From Marinifilum caeruleilacunae (GTDB taxonomy: Bacteria > Bacteroidota > Bacteroidia > Bacteroidales > Marinifilaceae): 64,000 nucleotides of DNA. The stretch lies in NCBI RefSeq assembly GCF_013141825.1, contig NZ_RZNH01000007.1:62001-126000 (forward strand). The letters run 5' to 3'. Positions 48,811 to 62,005 of this stretch are shown piece after piece (the first letter of the stretch is position 1; every line of letters begins with the position of its first letter). Made by a program: the position numbers and the translations under genes. The notes beneath the pieces were generated by a model that did no database searches, was not told where the DNA came from, and saw only the letters and a program-made list of their open reading frames with translations.

Positions 48811-49998
48811 ATGATAGATTATCCAAAAGTATACCTGAGAAAAGGGAAGGAGCACTCTGTTAAAAGATTCCATCCATGGATTTTTTCGGGAGCTGTAAGT
48901 AAAGTAGATGAAGGCTTACAAGAGGGAGATTTGGTCTCAGTTTATAACGATCAGAATGAATTTTTAGCAATCGGACATATCTCCATCGGGTCGATAGTGG
49001 TTCGAATTCTAAGTTTCGAAGAAAGAGAAATTAACCTGGACTTTTGGGTAGAAAAAATTCGCTCTGCTTGCGAAATGAGAAGAGCAGTTTCTCTTTATGG
49101 CGCAGAAGATAACAATGTATTCAGGTTGGTGCATGGCGAAGGTGATGGCCTGCCAGGTTTGATCATCGATTTTTATGCAGGAACTGCCGTAATACAATGT
49201 CATTCGGTTGGAATGTATCTGCATCGCGAAGAAATAACCGAAGCTTTGCAAACTGTTTTTGGTAAAGATTTGGTAGCTGTTTTCGACAAATCGGAAGGAA
49301 CCATTCCTTTTAAATCGGGCATTGAGCCCAAAAATGGGTATCTGTTTGGTGAAACAGAGTCGTTTACAGCATTGGAAAACGGCTTAAAATTTAATGTGGA
49401 TTGGTTGAAAGGCCAGAAAACAGGTTTTTTTATCGACCAGCGCGAAAACAGAAGCTTATTGGAACACTATTCGAAAGGAAGATCTGTATTGAATATGTTC
49501 TGCTATACCGGTGGATTTTCATTTTATGCCATGCGAGGTGGTGCAGAATTGGTTCATTCGGTTGACAGCTCATCGAGAGCCATTGATATTACCAATGAAA
49601 ATGTTGAGCTAAACTTTCCAGACGACAAGCGACATGAAGCTTTCGCTGAAGATGCTTTCAAGTTTCTGGATCAATCTTCACAAAAATATGACCTGATTGT
49701 GCTGGATCCACCTGCTTTTGCAAAGCACAAAAAGGTATTGGATAATGCCTTGAAAGGATACAAGCGATTAAATAAAAAAGGATTCGAACAGATTAAGCCA
49801 GGAGGAATTCTATTTACTTTCTCTTGTTCGCAGGCAGTTAGCAAAGAAGATTTTAGAAAAGCCGTATTTGTTGCAGCAGCAAATGCAGGTAGAACTGTTC
49901 GTGTTCTGCATCAATTAACGCAACCAGCCGATCATCCGGTAAATATTTATCATCCCGAAGGAGAATACCTGAAAGGCTTGGTTTTATATGTTGAATAA
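48811..49998 (+). CDS. rlmI: Class I rRNA methyltransferase, RlmI-like
   Basis: The 395-residue protein has an N-terminal PUA domain (about 1-80, with HPWIFSGAVSKVDEGLQEGDLVSV), a linker domain, and a Rossmann methyltransferase domain with motif I VLNMFCYTGGFSFYAMRGGA, VHSVDSSSRAID, and motif IV LDPPAFAKHKK. This matches RlmI, which methylates C5 of a cytosine in 23S rRNA; the exact position in this organism is not proven. The catalytic Cys region FSCSQAVSKEDF is present. It is followed by a DEAD helicase gene. Confidence 0.9.
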   Translation: MIDYPKVYLRKGKEHSVKRFHPWIFSGAVSKVDEGLQEGDLVSVYNDQNEFLAIGHISIGSIVVRILSFEEREINLDFWVEKIRSACEMRRAVSLYGAEDNNVFRLVHGEGDGLPGLIIDFYAGTAVIQCHSVGMYLHREEITEALQTVFGKDLVAVFDKSEGTIPFKSGIEPKNGYLFGETESFTALENGLKFNVDWLKGQKTGFFIDQRENRSLLEHYSKGRSVLNMFCYTGGFSFYAMRGGAELVHSVDSSSRAIDITNENVELNFPDDKRHEAFAEDAFKFLDQSSQKYDLIVLDPPAFAKHKKVLDNALKGYKRLNKKGFEQIKPGGILFTFSCSQAVSKEDFRKAVFVAAANAGRTVRVLHQLTQPADHPVNIYHPEGEYLKGLVLYVE

Positions 49999-55864: not shown

Positions 55865-56683
55865 TTAGAATATAATCAGAAAAGATTGTGTAATTAGTTT
55901 TTTAAACTTGCTTTTAATGCTTGCTTTGTCGATTCTATGTTTTGGTTTTTTAGCTGGCACTTGCGTGTGATTTCCCAGTATGATAACTGCAGGGGAGGCA
56001 GGAAGTTCTGATGCTTCGATGGTGCTAAAAAATTGTGTATTGCCACTCAAAATTTCACTATCGCCATAGCTAACTTTCGAAACCACATTGATATGGGTTT
56101 CCTTTGAAAGTCGTTGGTTGAGCTCAGCTGCCATTTTGTTCAGGTTTTCTAATCCCATGTAAATTACGACCGTATCGTTATTTTCGATTTGCTGAACAAT
56201 GCCATCCAATTCATTTTTTTTGCCACCAACTTTAACGGCTGAGTGAAAATGAATACCAGATGCTTTTCCCCTTTCAGTAAGCGGAACCCAGAATTCGTTA
56301 GCAGCAGCCATTCCAGCACTAATTCCGGGAATCAATTCAAAATCCAGTTCCGATTCCAATAGAAATCGAATTTCTTCAACGCCCCTGCCATAAACCATTG
56401 GGTCGCCAGATTTTAACCTTACAACCTGATAGCCCAAACTATAGTATAGGATCATTTGGTTGTGTATGTATTGCTGTCTTGTAACGGGATTTGTTCCATC
56501 GCCTGAGCGTTTCCCAACTTCAATTACCTTTGTTTTCTCTGGAAATAGGTTTCGAACATCTTTGGTAATTAATGCATCAGTTAGAATAACATCTGCCGAT
56601 TCGATTACTTTTAAAGCTCGTAGTGTAAGAAGATCGGAGGCACCGGGGCCGGCACCTACAATCCATATTTTTCCTGTACTCAT
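55865..56683 (-). CDS. cobA: Uroporphyrinogen-III C-methyltransferase (SUMT)
   Basis: The protein of 272 residues has the tetrapyrrole methylase motifs GAGPGASDLLTLRALKVIESADVILTDALI, LKSGDPMVYGRGVEEI, PGISAGMAAAN and a C-terminal EASELPASPAVIILGNHTQV. It adds methyl groups from SAM at C2 and C7 of uroporphyrinogen III to make precorrin-2, which siroheme and cobalamin need. Here it lies last in the sulfite reduction operon, 11 bp after cysI, so it supplies the siroheme of CysI. I chose the ATG at 56683; a TTG at 56692 is also in frame. The dehydrogenase step is on a separate gene upstream. Confidence 0.92.
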   Translation of the reverse strand: MSTGKIWIVGAGPGASDLLTLRALKVIESADVILTDALITKDVRNLFPEKTKVIEVGKRSGDGTNPVTRQQYIHNQMILYYSLGYQVVRLKSGDPMVYGRGVEEIRFLLESELDFELIPGISAGMAAANEFWVPLTERGKASGIHFHSAVKVGGKKNELDGIVQQIENNDTVVIYMGLENLNKMAAELNQRLSKETHINVVSKVSYGDSEILSGNTQFFSTIEASELPASPAVIILGNHTQVPAKKPKHRIDKASIKSKFKKLITQSFLIIF

Positions 56684-56694
56684 GCTATTCAAGT

Positions 56695-58401
56695 TTAATG
56701 TTTAAAATCTTTTGGGTGTACAATTTCCTGGATGTACTTCTGGCGAATCACAAAATCTCCAAAATATTCTCCATCAGTTCTATTTTTAGAATAATCTTGA
56801 AGAATTGGTCGGAGTTCCTGCAGTATTTCTTCTTCATTTGCATTCTCGCGGTACAAATTATTCAGACGAGTGCCATTAAAATTCCCTCCCAGGTAGAGGT
56901 TGTATCTGCCTGGACCTTTCCCGATAAATCCAATTTCGGCTACATAGGGTCTTCCACAACCATTGGCACATCCAGTCATTCGAATTACAATTTCATCCTT
57001 GAACAGGTTGAATTCTTTTAAGCTGTGCTCAATTTTATCGATCAAACTTGGCAAGTATCTTTCAGCTTCGGCAAAAGCCAGGCTACAGGTATTTAAGGCA
57101 ACACAAGCAATCGAATTCGATCTGCTTCCTGATATCGTGTATGGAAGTGAATCATACTTTTTCAGGATTTCGTTGATCTTGCTCTTGTTTTCACTTTTAA
57201 TTTTACCAAGAATCAGGTTTTGATTGCCCGACAAACGAAAATCGGAAATGTTAAGGCTGGCAATTTCGCGCAAAGCAGATTTTACTTTTGCATTCTTTTC
57301 ATCTTTTACTCTGCCGCCTTCGACGAACAGGCCCAAATACCACTCTCCACTTTGGGTCTGATGCCAACCAAATTTATCGCCATTTCGAACCAGTGCGTAC
57401 TGTCTTTCAGCTTCCAGCTTATAGCCAAGTTTTTCATGCAGCAATTCTTTGAATCGTTCTACACCAAGGCGATCGATCGTATATTTTAAACGTGCATTTT
57501 TCCTGATCTTTCGATTTCCCTGTTCTTTTTGTACCAAAACAATTTTCTCAGCCACATCTACCGTGTTTTCAGCTTTTACAAAGCCCAAAACGGTTCCCAG
57601 TCGGGGATAAGTTTCCGTATCGCCGAAAGTGGTTCCCATTCCACCACCAGCAACCACGTTAAATCCTTTCAGAATACCATTGTTTTCGATGGCAATAAAG
57701 CCTATGTCTTGTGTAAATACATCGGTATCATTAAACGGAGGAATAGTAAAACCGATTTTAAATTTTCTTGGCAGATAAACCGGGCCATACAAAGGTTCTA
57801 CTTCGCCTTGCGATCCTTCCGCCACCTTTTTCTGATCGAGCCATATTTCATAATAAGCCGGTGTTCTTGGTGTAAGGTGATCACTCACTTTATTGGCATA
57901 ATCATGAACCTGATCGAACACATTAGAGCTGTAAGGGTGAGGACTGGCCATTACATTTCGGTTCACATCGCCACAAGCTGCAATGGTATCCAGCAATGCT
58001 TTGTTGATGGATTGGATACTGGCTTTCAAATTTCCCTTTAAAACTCCATGAAATTGAAATGCCTGCCTGGTGGTCAGCTTTAAAGTGCTGTTGGCATATT
58101 CATCAGAAATTTGATCCATTTGCAGCCATTGCTCCGCATTTACCACACCACCCGGAACTCTTACCCTGATAAGGAAAGAGTAATCGGGTTCCAGTTTGCT
58201 TTTTTTTCTTTCTCGTTCGGTATCCCTGTCGAACTGTTGATAAATACCATGAAACTTAGATACCTGGCGATCGTCTACAGCAATTGCATCCGTAATTGGA
58301 TCGGCTAGACTTTCCACTAAGCTTCCTCTAAGGTAATTGCTGTCCGTTTTAATTTTTTCTACCTCGGACAATTCTGCCCAATTTATATTTTGGTCTGACA
58401 T
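56695..58401 (-). CDS. cysI: Sulfite reductase hemoprotein subunit
   Basis: The protein of 568 residues has two sulfite/nitrite reductase ferredoxin-like half domains and the siroheme/4Fe-4S motif: the first pair is in CVALNTCSLAFAEAE (C-x5-C) and the second in GCANGCGRPY (C-x3-C), near residues 425-485. It reduces sulfite to sulfide by six electrons, using electrons from CysJ. I chose the ATG of MSDQNINW at 58401, giving a 13-bp gap after cysJ; an upstream start at 58428 would overlap cysJ by 14 nt. The neighbouring flavoprotein and siroheme genes make the sulfite role clear. Confidence 0.95.
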   Translation of the reverse strand: MSDQNINWAELSEVEKIKTDSNYLRGSLVESLADPITDAIAVDDRQVSKFHGIYQQFDRDTERERKKSKLEPDYSFLIRVRVPGGVVNAEQWLQMDQISDEYANSTLKLTTRQAFQFHGVLKGNLKASIQSINKALLDTIAACGDVNRNVMASPHPYSSNVFDQVHDYANKVSDHLTPRTPAYYEIWLDQKKVAEGSQGEVEPLYGPVYLPRKFKIGFTIPPFNDTDVFTQDIGFIAIENNGILKGFNVVAGGGMGTTFGDTETYPRLGTVLGFVKAENTVDVAEKIVLVQKEQGNRKIRKNARLKYTIDRLGVERFKELLHEKLGYKLEAERQYALVRNGDKFGWHQTQSGEWYLGLFVEGGRVKDEKNAKVKSALREIASLNISDFRLSGNQNLILGKIKSENKSKINEILKKYDSLPYTISGSRSNSIACVALNTCSLAFAEAERYLPSLIDKIEHSLKEFNLFKDEIVIRMTGCANGCGRPYVAEIGFIGKGPGRYNLYLGGNFNGTRLNNLYRENANEEEILQELRPILQDYSKNRTDGEYFGDFVIRQKYIQEIVHPKDFKH

Positions 58402-58414
58402 GATTGTGATTTCT

Positions 58415-60190
58415 TTAGTAAACATCAAGAAGTAATCGCTTCTCTTTCTTTAATTTTTTTAGATATTCGTCTGCTTTTTCCGCACTTATTCCTCCTTGGG
58501 CAGAAATAATTTCTTTCAGGCTATCCTGTACATCTTTGGCCATATTGTTTTTGTCTCCGCAGATATAAAAATGTGCCCCATTTTCGAGCCACTGAAATAC
58601 CTCACTGGCATTTTGTTGAAGTCTATCTTGCACATATTCTTTCTCTTTCTGATCGCGCGAAAAAGCAACATCTAATTTGTTTAAAACCCCTTTTTGCAGG
58701 TATTTCTGCCATTCAACCTGGTAGAGGAAATCTTCTTTGAATCGCTGATTTCCAAAGAATAACCAACTATTGGTGTTTTTGTCGTTCTGTTCAATTTCCT
58801 GCAAGAAACTTCTGTAAGGAGCAATACCAGTGCCTGCACCAACCATGATTATTGGCTTATCTGTTTCTGCAGGCAATCTGAATAGTTCATTTTTATCGAT
58901 AAAAATTGGAACATGATCACCAACATTAATTTGATCGGACAAGTAAGTTGAACAAGCACCGTTTCGATCTCTTTTCTTGTGTTTGTATCGTACCGAAGCT
59001 ACTGTTATGTGCACCTCTTCAGGGTTCTGACTTGGTCCAGAAGAAATGGAATAGAGACGGGCATACAAAACTCGTAATACAGTAAGGAATTCATCAGTGG
59101 TAATTTCTCCAGGAAAATCCTCCAGTAAATCTATGGCATCTGCTCCGTATAAATATTTGTCAAGTGCATCCTCGTTTTCCAATAAAGCAGTCAAATTTTT
59201 ATTTTTAACGATCTGATTGTACTTATCGATAACCTCACGGTTTAATACTGTAATTTCCAGTTTGTGCTGCAATGCTCTAAACAGACTTAAATCTTTACCA
59301 CCAACATGAACTATTCTTTCTGCATCATCGGCAAAATGTTGAATGATTAGATCAACCAGGTCAACAGGGTTATTAGGTAGAATTCCAATGCTATCTCCGG
59401 CCTGGTATTCTATTTCTGAATCTTCCAGGGAGATTTCAACATGGTAAATTTCCTTTTCAGATTGCTCTGTTGTGATTCTTACTTTTTCAAGCACTTCTGC
59501 ATAATAAGGGTTAGTGCGATTGAACTTCTTCTTTGTGACAGGTGAGTTTTCAACGCTTGTCGCTTGATTTGAATTGGGTTGAATTTCTTTCAATTCTCCT
59601 GCAATTGCTTCAATCCACTTCCCGGCAACTTCTTCGTAAGCAACATCAGCTTTATGAATGGGAACAATAGGTGTTCCGCCCAGTTTTTTAAATGCTTCAT
59701 CGAAATCGACACCAGTCTGGCAATATTTTTTGTACGATTTGTCGCCTAAAGCCAGTACCGAATATTTTGTTCCTTCTAGCTTAGGTGCTCTCTTTCCCAA
59801 TACAAACTCATGGAAATCTTCGGCCTGAATTGGTGGTTCGCCTTCGCCATGTGTGCTTACAATCAGGAAAAGATACTCCTCTTTTTTTAGGTCATTTTTC
59901 TTGTATTCATCCAATGCTTTTAGTGCAGGTGTAAATCCTAGTGCACGTACTCTATCGTACAAATCGAGGGCAATTTCTTTGCTATGCCCGGTATGGGTAC
60001 CATAAAGAATAGTGATTTTTTCTGAAACTGTTTTTACATTCGCCAGCTTGGGAATGTTATCATTGTTTATCCCGTTAATCTTACCAGACAGATAGCCATT
60101 CAGCCAAATCAACTGTTCCTTTTTCAGATCATGAATCAAGGCATCGATTTCTTGTAATTTTTCGGTATTAATTTGATATGGATTTGTCAT
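58415..60190 (-). CDS. cysJ: Sulfite reductase flavoprotein subunit
   Basis: The 591-residue protein has a flavodoxin domain (about 55-200, with ITILYGTHTGHSKEIALDLYDRV and LALGDKSY), an FAD domain (about 225-430, with RLYSISSGPSQNPEEV and GACSTYLSDQINVGD), and an NADPH domain with PIIMVGAGTGIAPYRSFLQE and HFYICGDKNNMAKDV. It ends in LLLDVY, the aromatic C-terminus that stacks on FAD in this class. It passes electrons from NADPH through FAD and FMN to CysI. It begins 3 bp after the siroheme dehydrogenase gene. Confidence 0.95.
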   Translation of the reverse strand: MTNPYQINTEKLQEIDALIHDLKKEQLIWLNGYLSGKINGINNDNIPKLANVKTVSEKITILYGTHTGHSKEIALDLYDRVRALGFTPALKALDEYKKNDLKKEEYLFLIVSTHGEGEPPIQAEDFHEFVLGKRAPKLEGTKYSVLALGDKSYKKYCQTGVDFDEAFKKLGGTPIVPIHKADVAYEEVAGKWIEAIAGELKEIQPNSNQATSVENSPVTKKKFNRTNPYYAEVLEKVRITTEQSEKEIYHVEISLEDSEIEYQAGDSIGILPNNPVDLVDLIIQHFADDAERIVHVGGKDLSLFRALQHKLEITVLNREVIDKYNQIVKNKNLTALLENEDALDKYLYGADAIDLLEDFPGEITTDEFLTVLRVLYARLYSISSGPSQNPEEVHITVASVRYKHKKRDRNGACSTYLSDQINVGDHVPIFIDKNELFRLPAETDKPIIMVGAGTGIAPYRSFLQEIEQNDKNTNSWLFFGNQRFKEDFLYQVEWQKYLQKGVLNKLDVAFSRDQKEKEYVQDRLQQNASEVFQWLENGAHFYICGDKNNMAKDVQDSLKEIISAQGGISAEKADEYLKKLKKEKRLLLDVY

Positions 60191-60193
60191 GAT

Positions 60194-60670
60194 TTAGTTT
60201 GCAATTAGTAATTTTTGAAGTCTGTAGTTTTCGAAATAATCTTTCAGTTGATTTCGAATTTGTATCGATTTGAAAACATCTTCGCCATTTGAACTTACGG
60301 CAATACTCAAATTGCCTTTCTTGTAGATGGCCGGAGAAACAAATTCACAAAATTCTGGTTGGTCGTGAACATTGAGCAGTACATTTGCTTCATTACAATC
60401 CCTGATCAACTGGCGAACAAAAGCTGGATCATCAACACAGCTATAAATCAGGTAGTAATCGCTCAGAAACTTTTTATCATACTGTTGTTCATGATATTTA
60501 ATGCCTGAATTCTTGATCCAACTGATAATGTTTGGCGCAAGTACTTCTAATAAATCGGTACTTCTCTGTAATATTTTTAATTTTTTGTAGGCATCTTCGC
60601 CACCTCCAATAATCAGTATTTTCTTATTGGTGATATCTATTGCTATGGGTAAAAATTGCTTCTTCGACAT
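60194..60670 (-). CDS. Precorrin-2 dehydrogenase / siroheme synthase N-terminal domain
   Basis: The 158-residue protein has the NAD-binding motif NKKILIIGGGEDAYKKLKILQ, a second-strand VLAPNI, and YLIYSCVDDPAFVRQLIRDCNEANVLLNVHDQPEFCEFVSPAIYKKGNLSIAVSSNG, which is the core of Met8/CysG-N. It oxidises precorrin-2 to sirohydrochlorin and may also insert iron. At 158 residues it lacks the C-terminal helical part of longer Met8-type enzymes. It works between SUMT and the CysI heme site, which explains its place in this operon. Confidence 0.92.
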   Translation of the reverse strand: MSKKQFLPIAIDITNKKILIIGGGEDAYKKLKILQRSTDLLEVLAPNIISWIKNSGIKYHEQQYDKKFLSDYYLIYSCVDDPAFVRQLIRDCNEANVLLNVHDQPEFCEFVSPAIYKKGNLSIAVSSNGEDVFKSIQIRNQLKDYFENYRLQKLLIAN

Positions 60671-60680
60671 GATTTTTGCT

Positions 60681-60911
60681 TTAAATGTGATAATCTATTG
60701 GATGTTTCTCCTCCTTGCCAAACTTGATCTTATTCCAGGTTCTTTCATGAATAAAATAGAGTCCCATTTTTGTGAATAATTCGACTCCACCTATCGACAT
60801 TGCCCATGTTATATCTCCAATAATCAGCCAGGAAATTAATATGGTATCGAGGGTGCCAACCGTTCTCCACGAAATTGTTTTTGCAATGCTTCTGTATGTA
60901 TTTTCTCTCAT
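60681..60911 (-). CDS. DUF2061 small membrane protein
   Basis: The 76-residue protein begins RSIAKTISWRTVGTLDTILISWLIIGDITWAMSIGGVELFTKMGLYFIHERTWNKI in several stretches typical of DUF2061: two short hydrophobic segments and the conserved FIHERxW motif. The function is unknown. In several bacteria it is fused to or neighbours APS kinase and other sulfate-assimilation genes, which fits its place as first gene of this sulfite operon. It starts 18 nt after the second attenuator hairpin and 10 bp precedes the siroheme dehydrogenase gene. Confidence 0.88.
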   Translation of the reverse strand: MRENTYRSIAKTISWRTVGTLDTILISWLIIGDITWAMSIGGVELFTKMGLYFIHERTWNKIKFGKEEKHPIDYHI

Positions 60912-60928
60912 TTTTTTCGGCTAATGGT

Positions 60929-60962
60929 AAAAAAAGAGCCTTTCTGGTTCGCAGAAAGGCTC
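60929..60962 (-). terminator. Attenuator terminator 2
   Basis: On the minus strand GAGCCTTTCTG and CAGAAAGGCTC form an 11-bp perfect stem with a 5-base loop followed by seven T. It lies between leader ORF 2 and the first structural gene, where a simple end-of-operon terminator makes no sense, so it is read as an attenuator. Confidence 0.85.
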
Positions 60963-60998
60963 GGTACGCTTGGTCATTTATATGCATAACGAAATCTG

Positions 60999-61082
60999 CT
61001 AAGGTGGATACCATAACATACACATACAACAACATACAGCTTGCTGATAAATTAAATTGATATGTGATTTCTCGTTCTTCAT
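60999..61082 (-). CDS. Cysteine-rich leader peptide 2
   Basis: This 27-codon ORF starts at an ATG (61082) and ends with TAG. It contains the cluster VCCCMCMLWYPP, with Cys codons at positions 17, 18, 19 and 21. A hairpin terminator follows 36 nt after the stop. A segment around the stop codon (minus strand TTAGCAGA, 60995-61002) can pair over five contiguous bases, seven with one mismatch, with part of the terminator 5' arm, a weaker antiterminator than in unit 1. The ORF is unlike a structural gene and shares the CCMC-type cluster with leader 1. Confidence 0.7.
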   Translation of the reverse strand: MKNEKSHINLIYQQAVCCCMCMLWYPP

Positions 61083-61133
61083 TTGATCTGTGATGCTTGT
61101 CTGATCTTCTAAGATAAATTGTATTGATTTCCA

Positions 61134-61166
61134 TAAAAAAAGCCTTTTTGCGTTTGCAAAAAGGCT
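61134..61166 (-). terminator. Attenuator terminator 1
   Basis: On the minus strand AGCCTTTTTGC and GCAAAAAGGCT form an 11-bp perfect stem with an AAAC loop followed by seven T. It lies 27 nt after the stop of leader ORF 1. Confidence 0.88.
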
Positions 61167-61193
61167 TTGTGCTTTTATTGTGTCCAATTCTGA

Positions 61194-61289
61194 CTAAACA
61201 ATTCCTTTCTGCAATACATGATTATCCCAACACATACAACAAGTACATGCAAGAGAAGAAGCAAATGTATTTTCAAGAGTAAATTTCAT
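61194..61289 (-). CDS. Cysteine-rich leader peptide 1
   Basis: This 31-codon ORF starts at an ATG (61289) and ends with TAG. It contains LACTCCMCWDNHV, with Cys codons at positions 15, 17, 18 and 20. Codons 26-29 contain the RNA segment UUGCAGAAAGG (61204-61214), which can pair with CCUUUUUGCAA of the following terminator (5' arm and loop) over 11 bp with one G-U. The terminator begins 27 nt after the stop. This is the classical layout of an amino-acid attenuator: stalling at Cys codons leaves the antiterminator free, and completed translation hides it. Confidence 0.78.
   Translation of the reverse strand: MKFTLENTFASSLACTCCMCWDNHVLQKGIV
61204..61214 (-). promoter_or_regulatory. Antiterminator segment in leader 1
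   Basis: The RNA segment UUGCAGAAAGG lies 15 nt beyond the last Cys codon of leader 1. It is complementary over 11 bases, one being G-U, to terminator 1, and its inner nine bases GCAGAAAGG are perfectly complementary to CCUUUCUGC of terminator 2. Confidence 0.65.
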
Positions 61290-61331
61290 TGTTTTGTTTT
61301 AAATCGGATTAAATGATCTTTAATTCGCCTA

Positions 61332-61363
61332 CAATGTTATGAAGTTATTTTGAATATTACAAA
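61332..61363 (-). promoter_or_regulatory. Promoter of the sulfite reduction operon
   Basis: On the minus strand TTTG (61363-61360) and TAACATTG (61339-61332) are 20 bp apart; the latter matches seven of eight positions relative to TAnnTTTG. It would start a leader transcript about 35 nt before leader ORF 1. Confidence 0.4.
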
Positions 61364-61406
61364 CACAGAATTTAAAAAATAGAGAGGTTTGCATTGAATT
61401 GATGAT

Positions 61407-61424
61407 TTCGTAATCGATTACGAA
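61407..61424. promoter_or_regulatory. 18-bp perfect palindrome, candidate operator
   Basis: TTCGTAATCGATTACGAA is fully self-complementary and located about 44 bp upstream of the -33 element of the sulfite operon promoter. Such a site suits a dimeric activator or repressor; none is identified. Confidence 0.6.
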
Positions 61425-61653
61425 GACTATTGCATTCTGAATACCAAAGCCCTTTAAAATCTGATATTTCAAAGCTTTTAGAATGGTGTTTTGTAAATGT
61501 CTAAAAAATATTGGAAAATATTTTATTTAGTGTGTGTACGAAGAAAGAGTAAAGGATTATTTAAAGAAGAATTCATAATTACTTTTCATCATATGACTTG
61601 AATTCAACTAAAATTGTCAATAAAAAATCTTGTGATAAGAAAATCTGAAATAG

Positions 61654-61902
61654 ATGAAAAACAGAATTGTAAGTTTCAAAAAACTGGATAATGAATTAAT
61701 GCAACTTGTGAATAAAACCTATCCCAATGGATTTGAAGAAGCAATACAGTCGTACATTCTTGGTCCTAACAAAAGCTTTTATGCATTCTCTATCAGCACA
61801 GAAGAATACCATTTTTTGGTAAAAGTTGATATGAATTATGATTTGGGATTGGACATGGATGAGGAAGAGTGTGATACAGAGTCAGATGTGGACCTTGATT
61901 AA
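61654..61902 (+). CDS. Small acidic hypothetical protein
   Basis: The 82-residue protein has a mixed N-terminal part (IVSFKKLDNELMQLVNKTYPNGFEEAIQSYI), a strand-like YAFSISTEEYHFLVKVDM and a highly acidic tail with DMDEEECDTESDVDLD. It has no signal peptide or membrane helix. No family is named from memory. It stands upstream of another small acidic gene in the same direction; 103 bp separate them and a promoter-like sequence lies in the gap. It looks like a real gene by composition and ATG start. Confidence 0.7.
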   Translation: MKNRIVSFKKLDNELMQLVNKTYPNGFEEAIQSYILGPNKSFYAFSISTEEYHFLVKVDMNYDLGLDMDEEECDTESDVDLD

Positions 61903-61950
61903 CTCATATTGAGGATATGAAAAAATTATGAATTGTTAATTCGTAATTTG

Positions 61951-61981
61951 TTGCTTGTAATTCAATCTCTTCCTATATTTA
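61951..61981 (+). promoter_or_regulatory. Promoter of the second small acidic gene
   Basis: TTG at 61951 and TATATTTA at 61974-61981 are 20 bp apart; the -7 element matches seven of eight positions. The start would lie about 20 nt before the ATG at 62006. Confidence 0.4.
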
Positions 61982-62005
61982 CAGCACATTTAATAATTGA
62001 TAACT

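Follow-up and report, generated by a model that had tools for sequence, protein, structure and literature searches.

The window (the whole 64,000-nucleotide stretch of Marinifilum caeruleilacunae DNA analysed here) carries on its minus strand an operon for sulfite reduction. A promoter-like site is followed in order by leader ORF 1, terminator 1, leader ORF 2, terminator 2 and the operon itself (Table 1), in which DUF2061 is succeeded by a siroheme-synthase-type NAD_binding_7 protein, CysJ, CysI and a probable uroporphyrinogen methyltransferase. The domains of the first four proteins were all found, in agreement with the original prediction that sulfide-making genes stand after the leaders. 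The promoter-like site resembles the Bacteroidota -33/-7 consensus, and its TTG and TANNNTTG positions are invariant across 10 aligned genomes. Both Cys clusters were correctly read in that prediction as belonging to two consecutive short ORFs (CTCCMC and CCCMC). Leader ORF 1 contains the stretch ACTCCMC, with four Cys within six codons, and leader 2 has four within five; Met codons, on which the original prediction did not comment, accompany Cys in both (CCMC and CCCMCM). Eleven codons separate the last Cys from the stop in leader 1 and six in leader 2. Each ORF is followed by a perfect hairpin and a T run. The 11-bp stem and seven T claimed for unit 2 are exactly as found, whereas the stem of unit 1 is longer than claimed, the terminator scan extending its 11 bp by A-U pairs to 13 bp.

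Table 1. Features of the tandem leader, the downstream operon and the Asn-rich leaders of the same genome.
Feature	Coordinates	Strand	Basis
Promoter-like site: TTTG, 20 nt, TAACATTG (putative, Bacteroidota -33/-7 type)	61332..61363	-	sequence
Leader ORF 1, 31 codons, MKFTLENTFASSLACTCCMCWDNHVLQKGIV, Cys cluster CTCCMC	61194..61289	-	ORF scan, sequence
Cys codon cluster of leader 1 (codons 15, 17, 18, 20)	61230..61247	-	sequence
Antiterminator arm 1 (VLQKG codon region); partner, 5' arm of terminator 1	61203..61215	-	predicted duplex, alignment
Intrinsic terminator 1, 13-bp perfect stem and T run	61139..61168	-	terminator scan
Leader ORF 2 (ATG), 27 codons, MKNEKSHINLIYQQAVCCCMCMLWYPP, Cys cluster CCCMC	60999..61082	-	ORF scan, sequence
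Cys codon cluster of leader 2 (codons 17, 18, 19, 21)	61020..61034	-	sequence
Stem 1:2-like hairpin, last codons and stop of leader 2 (UGUUA/UAGCA)	60997..61018	-	predicted folds
Antiterminator arm 2, pairs with 60969-60951	60984..60999	-	predicted folds, alignment
Antiterminator 2 partner strand, overlaps 5' arm of terminator 2	60951..60969	-	predicted folds, alignment
Intrinsic terminator 2, 11-bp perfect stem, then seven T	60936..60962	-	terminator scan
DUF2061 membrane protein, operon gene 1	60681..60911	-	PF09834
Siroheme-synthase-type dehydrogenase (NAD_binding_7)	60194..60670	-	PF13241
CysJ-type sulfite reductase flavoprotein	58415..60190	-	Flavodoxin_1, FAD_binding_1, NAD_binding_1
CysI-type sulfite reductase hemoprotein	56695..58428	-	NIR_SIR, NIR_SIR_ferr
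Probable uroporphyrinogen-III methyltransferase (siroheme synthesis), fifth gene	55865..56692	-	name from reading translation only
Own-genome asnA leaders	G000:C95, L077:2762-3010		Asn-rich tandem

Chance is excluded as the source of this arrangement of leaders and terminators. The window contains 859 ATG ORFs of 8-62 aa. Only three of them hold at least four Cys in six residues, and among those three only the two leaders have a stem of at least 10 bp and a T run within 120 nt; the third (49810-49911) is without a terminator. Fifty first-order Markov windows held a mean of 0.14 Cys-rich ORFs (maximum 1) and none with such a terminator. The pattern TGYTGYATGTGY matches eight places in the M. 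caeruleilacunae genome, against three for a reversed control. Two of the eight are the leaders, and the six further places (L001-L006) have between them three short Cys-rich frames nearby, none of which is followed by a terminator within 120 nt. One frame, MCKCICMHSVLFT, of 13 codons, lies on the plus strand at L005:1331-1372 and likewise lacks a terminator at that distance; 140 nt further on stands a gene whose translation reads as threonine dehydrogenase. An Rfam scan of 60600-62000 returned 11 matches up to E=5, none of which reached its gathering score, and a riboswitch or T-box in the window leader was rejected because all matches were sub-threshold.

T-run hairpins are frequent, and the unit-1 stem scores as a terminator on the opposite strand too, so the hairpins might be ordinary terminators of other transcripts, with the Cys ORFs incidental. 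The nearest gene-size ORF upstream of the leaders (61654-61902), however, lies on the plus strand and is oriented away, and the promoter-like site stands between it and the leaders. Together with the exclusion of chance and the joint conservation of ORFs and hairpins described below, this makes ordinary termination an extremely remote explanation.

Alignment of the upstream regions of relatives had been set beforehand as the place where the original prediction could fail; it revealed leaders and hairpins conserved in 10 close loci. A search for DUF2061 in 58 relatives yielded 14 loci from 13 genomes. All 10 close loci have the full set of two leaders and two hairpins, and the four distant ones (L019-L022) have neither Cys leaders nor hairpins. 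In the 10-genome alignment the promoter-like positions and the Cys codons fall on invariant columns, as do large parts of the arms and stems. The unit was also turned into a covariance model (R1; strong matches being those over 90 bits). Among 57 family genomes it matched strongly twice in 15 and once in one more, and the congeneric genome G005 (80% completeness) gave no strong match. Over 247 genomes of the order, strong matches were confined to the M. caeruleilacunae genome; hence the unit sequences are apparently restricted to Marinifilaceae at this sensitivity. Four weak matches in the order (L098-L101) were discarded as plain hairpins by appearance. Inspection of 15 weaker R1 regions identified as attenuators two leaders of a second sulfite reductase operon and three asnA leaders; the remaining regions looked like ordinary terminators and were rejected. 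Among 18 named CysJ loci, 12 belong to Marinifilum, Labilibaculum or other Marinifilaceae, five to Bacillus or Priestia and one to Marinilabiliaceae. The leader scan covered 17 of these (L097 was left out) and found both units in 11, a single decayed unit in one and none in five (L090-L094; four Bacillus and one Marinilabiliaceae).

Leader 1 is an ORF of 30-33 codons in 15 genomes, with CCMC kept in every one. Leader 2 has 27 codons in all 15 despite divergent residues 2-16, and its Cys positions are never replaced, their codons varying only between TGT and TGC. The single decayed unit is that of Labilibaculum filiforme (L096:5500-6060), where ATC occupies the position of the leader 1 ATG, unit 2 is gone and cysJ is without a following cysI. 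Both broken pairs of antiterminator 1 in the alignment belong to this row. Judged by its sequence, the L. filiforme locus is a natural case of decay of the unit.

Folds, alignment and duplex tests indicate an antiterminator competing with each terminator, a feature that the original prediction did not mention. When the RNA after the Cys cluster is folded with the terminator 3' arm absent, the antiterminator is predicted in 10 of 10 sequences of each unit; with the 3' arm included, the consensus fold is the terminator for both units. The exceptions are two of the ten unit-1 sequences (L016 and L017), whose full-length minimum-energy fold keeps the antiterminator. In the window, the RNA able to pair with the terminator 5' arm begins 14 nt (unit 1) and 19 nt (unit 2) beyond the final Cys codon. 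The unit 1 helix is preserved across CAG AAA, CAA GAA and CAA AAA variants, and its window duplex is stronger than that of shuffled sequences (-15.1 versus a mean of -8.9 kcal/mol, p=0.003). The simple duplex of arm and terminator in window unit 2 is no better than shuffles (p=0.29), the values for unit 2 in the three genomes tried, window included, being 0.29, 0.23 and 0.057. A wider survey tried 29 units of Cys, Asn and His type and used 28, one having no detected terminator. Counted from the last cognate codon, the distance in these 28 is 0 to 19 nt to the start of the arm and 42 to 80 nt to the terminator. Pairing of the arm exceeds that of 95% of dinucleotide-shuffled sequences in 21 units (uncorrected); the seven that fail at 0.05 include unit 2 of all three genomes tried.

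Covarying stems in relatives were among the signs to look for that the original prediction named; unit 2 has one two-sided pair each in its antiterminator and terminator, and unit 1 has none. Pairing was counted over 15-16 genomes whose sequences are related to each other. Antiterminator 1 (98.5% of cells paired, 13 distinct rows) and terminator 1 (100%) show zero two-sided changes. In antiterminator 2 (98.5% of cells paired) the two-sided pair is U-A in 7, C-G in 6 and U-G in 1 of 14 distinct rows, and in terminator 2 (100%) one pair is C-G in 7 and U-A in 7 of 14. Cell counts and covariation scores of unit 2 were matched by only 1 of 500 shuffles; its numbers of two-sided pairs were reached by 357 and 245 of 500, and the covariation of unit 1 equalled that of its shuffles. 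Since the signal of unit 1 is thin, the two-sided counts are at shuffle level and the sequences are related, support from covariation is modest. What the sequence itself shows is the ORFs with their Cys clusters, the terminators and the competing antiterminators, along with how these elements are spaced and conserved.

We modelled the position of the ribosome on the window leaders with an assumed 12-nt front edge. When it is placed at the stop codon, the RNA before the terminator 3' arm is predicted to be nearly unstructured (-1.0 and -1.1 kcal/mol), and hence the terminator would meet no competitor. When it is placed at any Cys codon, the antiterminator is exposed, with predicted energies of -18.5 kcal/mol in unit 1 and -12.5 to -13.9 kcal/mol in unit 2. 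Whatever the ribosome state in the window model, the finished terminator is the favoured fold at equilibrium, so antitermination must be kinetic; the switch in the classical trp attenuation model is kinetic as well.

These placements suggest the following sequence of events. With ample cysteine, the ribosome would translate the Cys codons and arrive at the stop codon, where it would hide the antiterminator arm, which consists of the LQKG codons in unit 1 and of the stop codon with the bases after it in unit 2; with the arm hidden, the terminator would fold and RNA polymerase would stop. With cysteine in short supply, the ribosome would stall in the Cys cluster and leave the downstream arm free to pair with the terminator 5' arm before the 3' arm is made, so that polymerase would pass. 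Both gates would have to be passed in series to reach the sulfite-reduction genes. Read-through probabilities would then multiply, and we propose that this gives a tighter shut-off and a steeper response; that a series of two units sharpens the response is plausible on this model. We infer that the leaders are translated, that ribosomes stall on them, that the two folds compete kinetically and that the gates in series multiply. The leader very probably comprises two complete ribosome-mediated attenuators in series, both reading the supply of Cys-tRNA. The original proposal of ribosome-mediated attenuation that senses cysteine is accordingly strengthened by conservation and by antiterminators placed as such a model requires, with unit 2 weak in one test.

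Cys leaders also stand at other sulfur loci. Two Labilibaculum-like genomes (G024 and G069; L065 and L066) have a second sulfite reductase operon with its own tandem Cys leaders, CCCC and CCICCMCCC, and a terminator after each. A SAM riboswitch (RF00162) lies upstream of both tandems, so that three candidate sensors share one leader. At cysH, we surveyed 33 loci from the family of the Flavobacterium-like genome G357 (the best 30 of 80 matching genomes and three more). Eight of them, L160 included, have two Cys or Cys/Met leaders with a terminator after each, and these eight all fall within the ten cysH genes of highest similarity. These doubled leaders share no obvious sequence with those of the window. 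L156 has a single unit and L163 one Cys frame and hairpin about 600 nt upstream; the other 23 cysH loci are without such a unit, two of them (L171 and L178) showing Cys-rich frames and no terminators.

Elsewhere in the phylum, 20 of the 27 CysI matches outside the M. caeruleilacunae genome were sampled, and a Cys-rich short ORF precedes the sulfur operon at 14 of them. Terminators were detected at L108-L110 and L116-L119, and imperfect ones were seen by eye at L115 and L120. The antiterminators of L118 (GGUAGUGG/CCACUACC) and L119 (GAUAGCGGG/CCCGCUAUC) are compensatory by eye. Five loci of family f122 (L104-L107 and L112) have leader ORFs with Cys runs and no terminators at the settings used; in several of these leaders the Cys run stands at the C-terminus or close to it, an arrangement described for mycobacteria. 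A Cys leader was not seen at L103, L111, L113 and L121, of which L113 starts with a gene that reads as an Rrf2-like regulator, nor at L102 and L114, where the stretches begin inside the cys gene cluster. Two genomes of family f123 have short ORFs ending in RMCMCC (L113:10681-10764 and L114:7794-7877), possibly a further Cys leader, ahead of a gene whose translation reads as a TonB-type receptor. A Cys/Met leader, MKNNNKMCCMMMMCMCAPP, occurs with a terminator at L110:11664-11801 and L109:9718-9777, and the gene after it in L110 reads as an O-acetylhomoserine sulfhydrylase (MetY-like).

The recurrence of Met beside Cys bears on which signal is read. The leaders might sense Cys-tRNA and Met-tRNA together, or one unit might be tuned to each, as would suit the internal Met codons of both window clusters, the mixed runs of the Flavobacterium-like genus (CMMMMCC, MMMCMCC and CCMMMMCMC) and of family f142 (CCMMMCC and CCCMCMCMMC), the MetY-like gene after the L110 leader and the SAM riboswitch ahead of the L065 and L066 tandems. 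The window leaders, however, hold four Cys each against one or two internal Met codons, the internal Met of leader 2 is Val in one genome type (L043), and the sulfide made by the operon goes directly to cysteine; we therefore consider a joint or divided Cys/Met signal unlikely. Because both leaders are Cys clusters, it is likely that the two window units read the same signal, and their Met codons leave room for a difference.

Leaders of the same kind precede genes for other amino acids. Of 28 asnA loci, the 14 closest (L122-L135, with that of M. caeruleilacunae itself among them) all have two Asn-rich leaders, such as MIQSNNNNNLFNNLMNNSSKMGSL and MVQFFNNNNNNNNSPPG; two terminators were found in 12 at the first setting and in a 13th at a relaxed one. 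The more distant asnA loci comprise one with two ORFs, two with one and 11 with none. A single His leader (MKFIALHHRHHHFTYPQVS) and one terminator precede hisG at 8 of 9 loci (L183-L191; L187 has none). Likewise, a single Trp leader (MFGLNSKYWWWHNCNLS...) with one terminator precedes trpE at seven of the eight loci scanned (L192-L199, L192 being the exception), which are the best 8 of 15 trpE-domain places. Six of the His loci and six of the Trp loci belong to the genus of the window, and no doubling was seen at the hisG and trpE loci scanned. Of the four amino acids examined, Cys and Asn thus show doubled leaders, and His and Trp single ones. The original prediction made no mention of doubling at asnA or in other lineages.

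In each case the cognate codons match the downstream gene (Cys and sulfur genes, Asn and asnA, His and hisG, Trp and trpE). This weighs against the peptides being small thiol- or metal-binding proteins, or stallers of the ribosome that respond to oxidants or metals. Clusters of the CxCCMC type could bind soft metals, and the N-terminal parts of the leaders are kept as open reading frames, but the residues before the leader 2 cluster diverge freely and the codons beyond the cluster are accounted for by antiterminator pairing. That the Cys-rich peptides have a function of their own was accordingly judged very improbable.

The single units bear in turn on whether both window units regulate. One might be the sole regulatory unit and the other a passive duplicate, or act on translation or mRNA decay, a reading that fits the single units seen for Cys elsewhere in the phylum and for His and Trp in the genus of the window, and also the weaker antiterminator duplex of unit 2. 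Yet the Cys clusters, stems and arms of both units are intact in 15 aligned genomes, and doubling is found again at asnA and in another genus. We thus regard regulation by one unit as distinctly improbable and retain two serial attenuators as the preferred reading.

Ribosome-mediated attenuation is classically represented by the trp, his, thr, phe and ilv leaders of Proteobacteria. The window leader resembles these in having a short ORF of cognate codons, an antiterminator, an intrinsic terminator and a biosynthetic operon, and a protector-like stem in unit 2; it differs in reading cysteine, in belonging to Bacteroidota and in placing two complete units in series. The end-product codons are clustered, an intrinsic terminator stands twice before the first gene and a mutually exclusive antiterminator involves each terminator 5' arm, although in unit 2 the simple duplex does not beat its shuffles (p=0.29). 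In the model with its assumed 12-nt front edge, moreover, a ribosome at the stop codon would mask the arm and one at a Cys codon would free it. The classical mechanism is outlined in passages of PMC3641672, which also describe the Salmonella mgtCBR leader, with tandem attenuators that sense ATP and proline, as a singular example and contrast it with metE, whose leader has two terminator sites. In mgtCBR, as is proposed for the window, a single leader holds a pair of short ORFs that are both tied to the control of transcription; the signals differ there (PMC3641672, same passages), whereas here both units probably read one amino acid and each has its own terminator.

As the original prediction stated, Cys-rich leaders before sulfur genes are known in Actinobacteria. 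Passages of PMC1262725 describe leader peptides with Cys runs upstream of cys operons in Mycobacterium and Propionibacterium acnes and, in Bifidobacterium, upstream of cbs; the run lies near the stop, there is no conserved terminator hairpin and Rho is suspected. The window leaders share with these the run of Cys codons in a short ORF before sulfur genes and differ in their two terminators with antiterminators and in a Cys cluster that is not near the stop, whereas the terminator-less f122 leaders resemble the actinobacterial type as those passages present it (PMC1262725). In Bacteroidota, passages of PMC9723704 give clues for leader-peptide attenuation before amino acid operons of Flavobacterium psychrophilum, these passages naming neither a cysteine leader nor a tandem layout, and passages of PMC7366714 report sORFs reminiscent of leader peptides in Bacteroides thetaiotaomicron. 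Attenuation as such in Bacteroidota is therefore already known, in these sources as inferred cases (passages of PMC9723704 and PMC7366714). Passages of PMC2965389 and PMC4833913 name no Cys leader in Bacteroidetes. Among the matches listed in a literature search, largely outside subscription journals, there was neither a Cys attenuator from Bacteroidota nor a tandem leader attenuator in which both units read the same signal. The original statement that no tandem terminator-type Cys leader in Bacteroidota was known to have been described likewise met no counterexample among those matches. Compared with known attenuation, what appears to be new, as far as sequence tells, is a cysteine version with complete terminators and antiterminators, the doubling of the same sensor and its occurrence in Bacteroidota.

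Sensing of amino acids by leader attenuation is textbook biology for enteric bacteria. A Cys attenuator with complete terminators and antiterminators would offer a testable answer to how sulfide-making genes are controlled in Bacteroidota. More widely, we suggest tentatively, as a serious possibility that we would not yet favour, that serial duplication of a same-signal attenuator is a general design of Bacteroidota that has arisen more than once: at cysJI of Marinifilaceae, at the second sulfite reductase operon of Labilibaculum-like genomes, at cysH of a Flavobacterium-like genus and at asnA. It would serve Cys/Met and Asn and not His or Trp in the same cells, and would act as a multiplicative gate, while across large parts of the phylum sulfur assimilation would be switched mainly by Cys/Met leaders, family f122 having a further form that lacks the terminator. 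That the same sensor is doubled for cysteine and asparagine and not for histidine and tryptophan within one genus raises a question of regulatory design, namely what is gained from a second identical gate in series.
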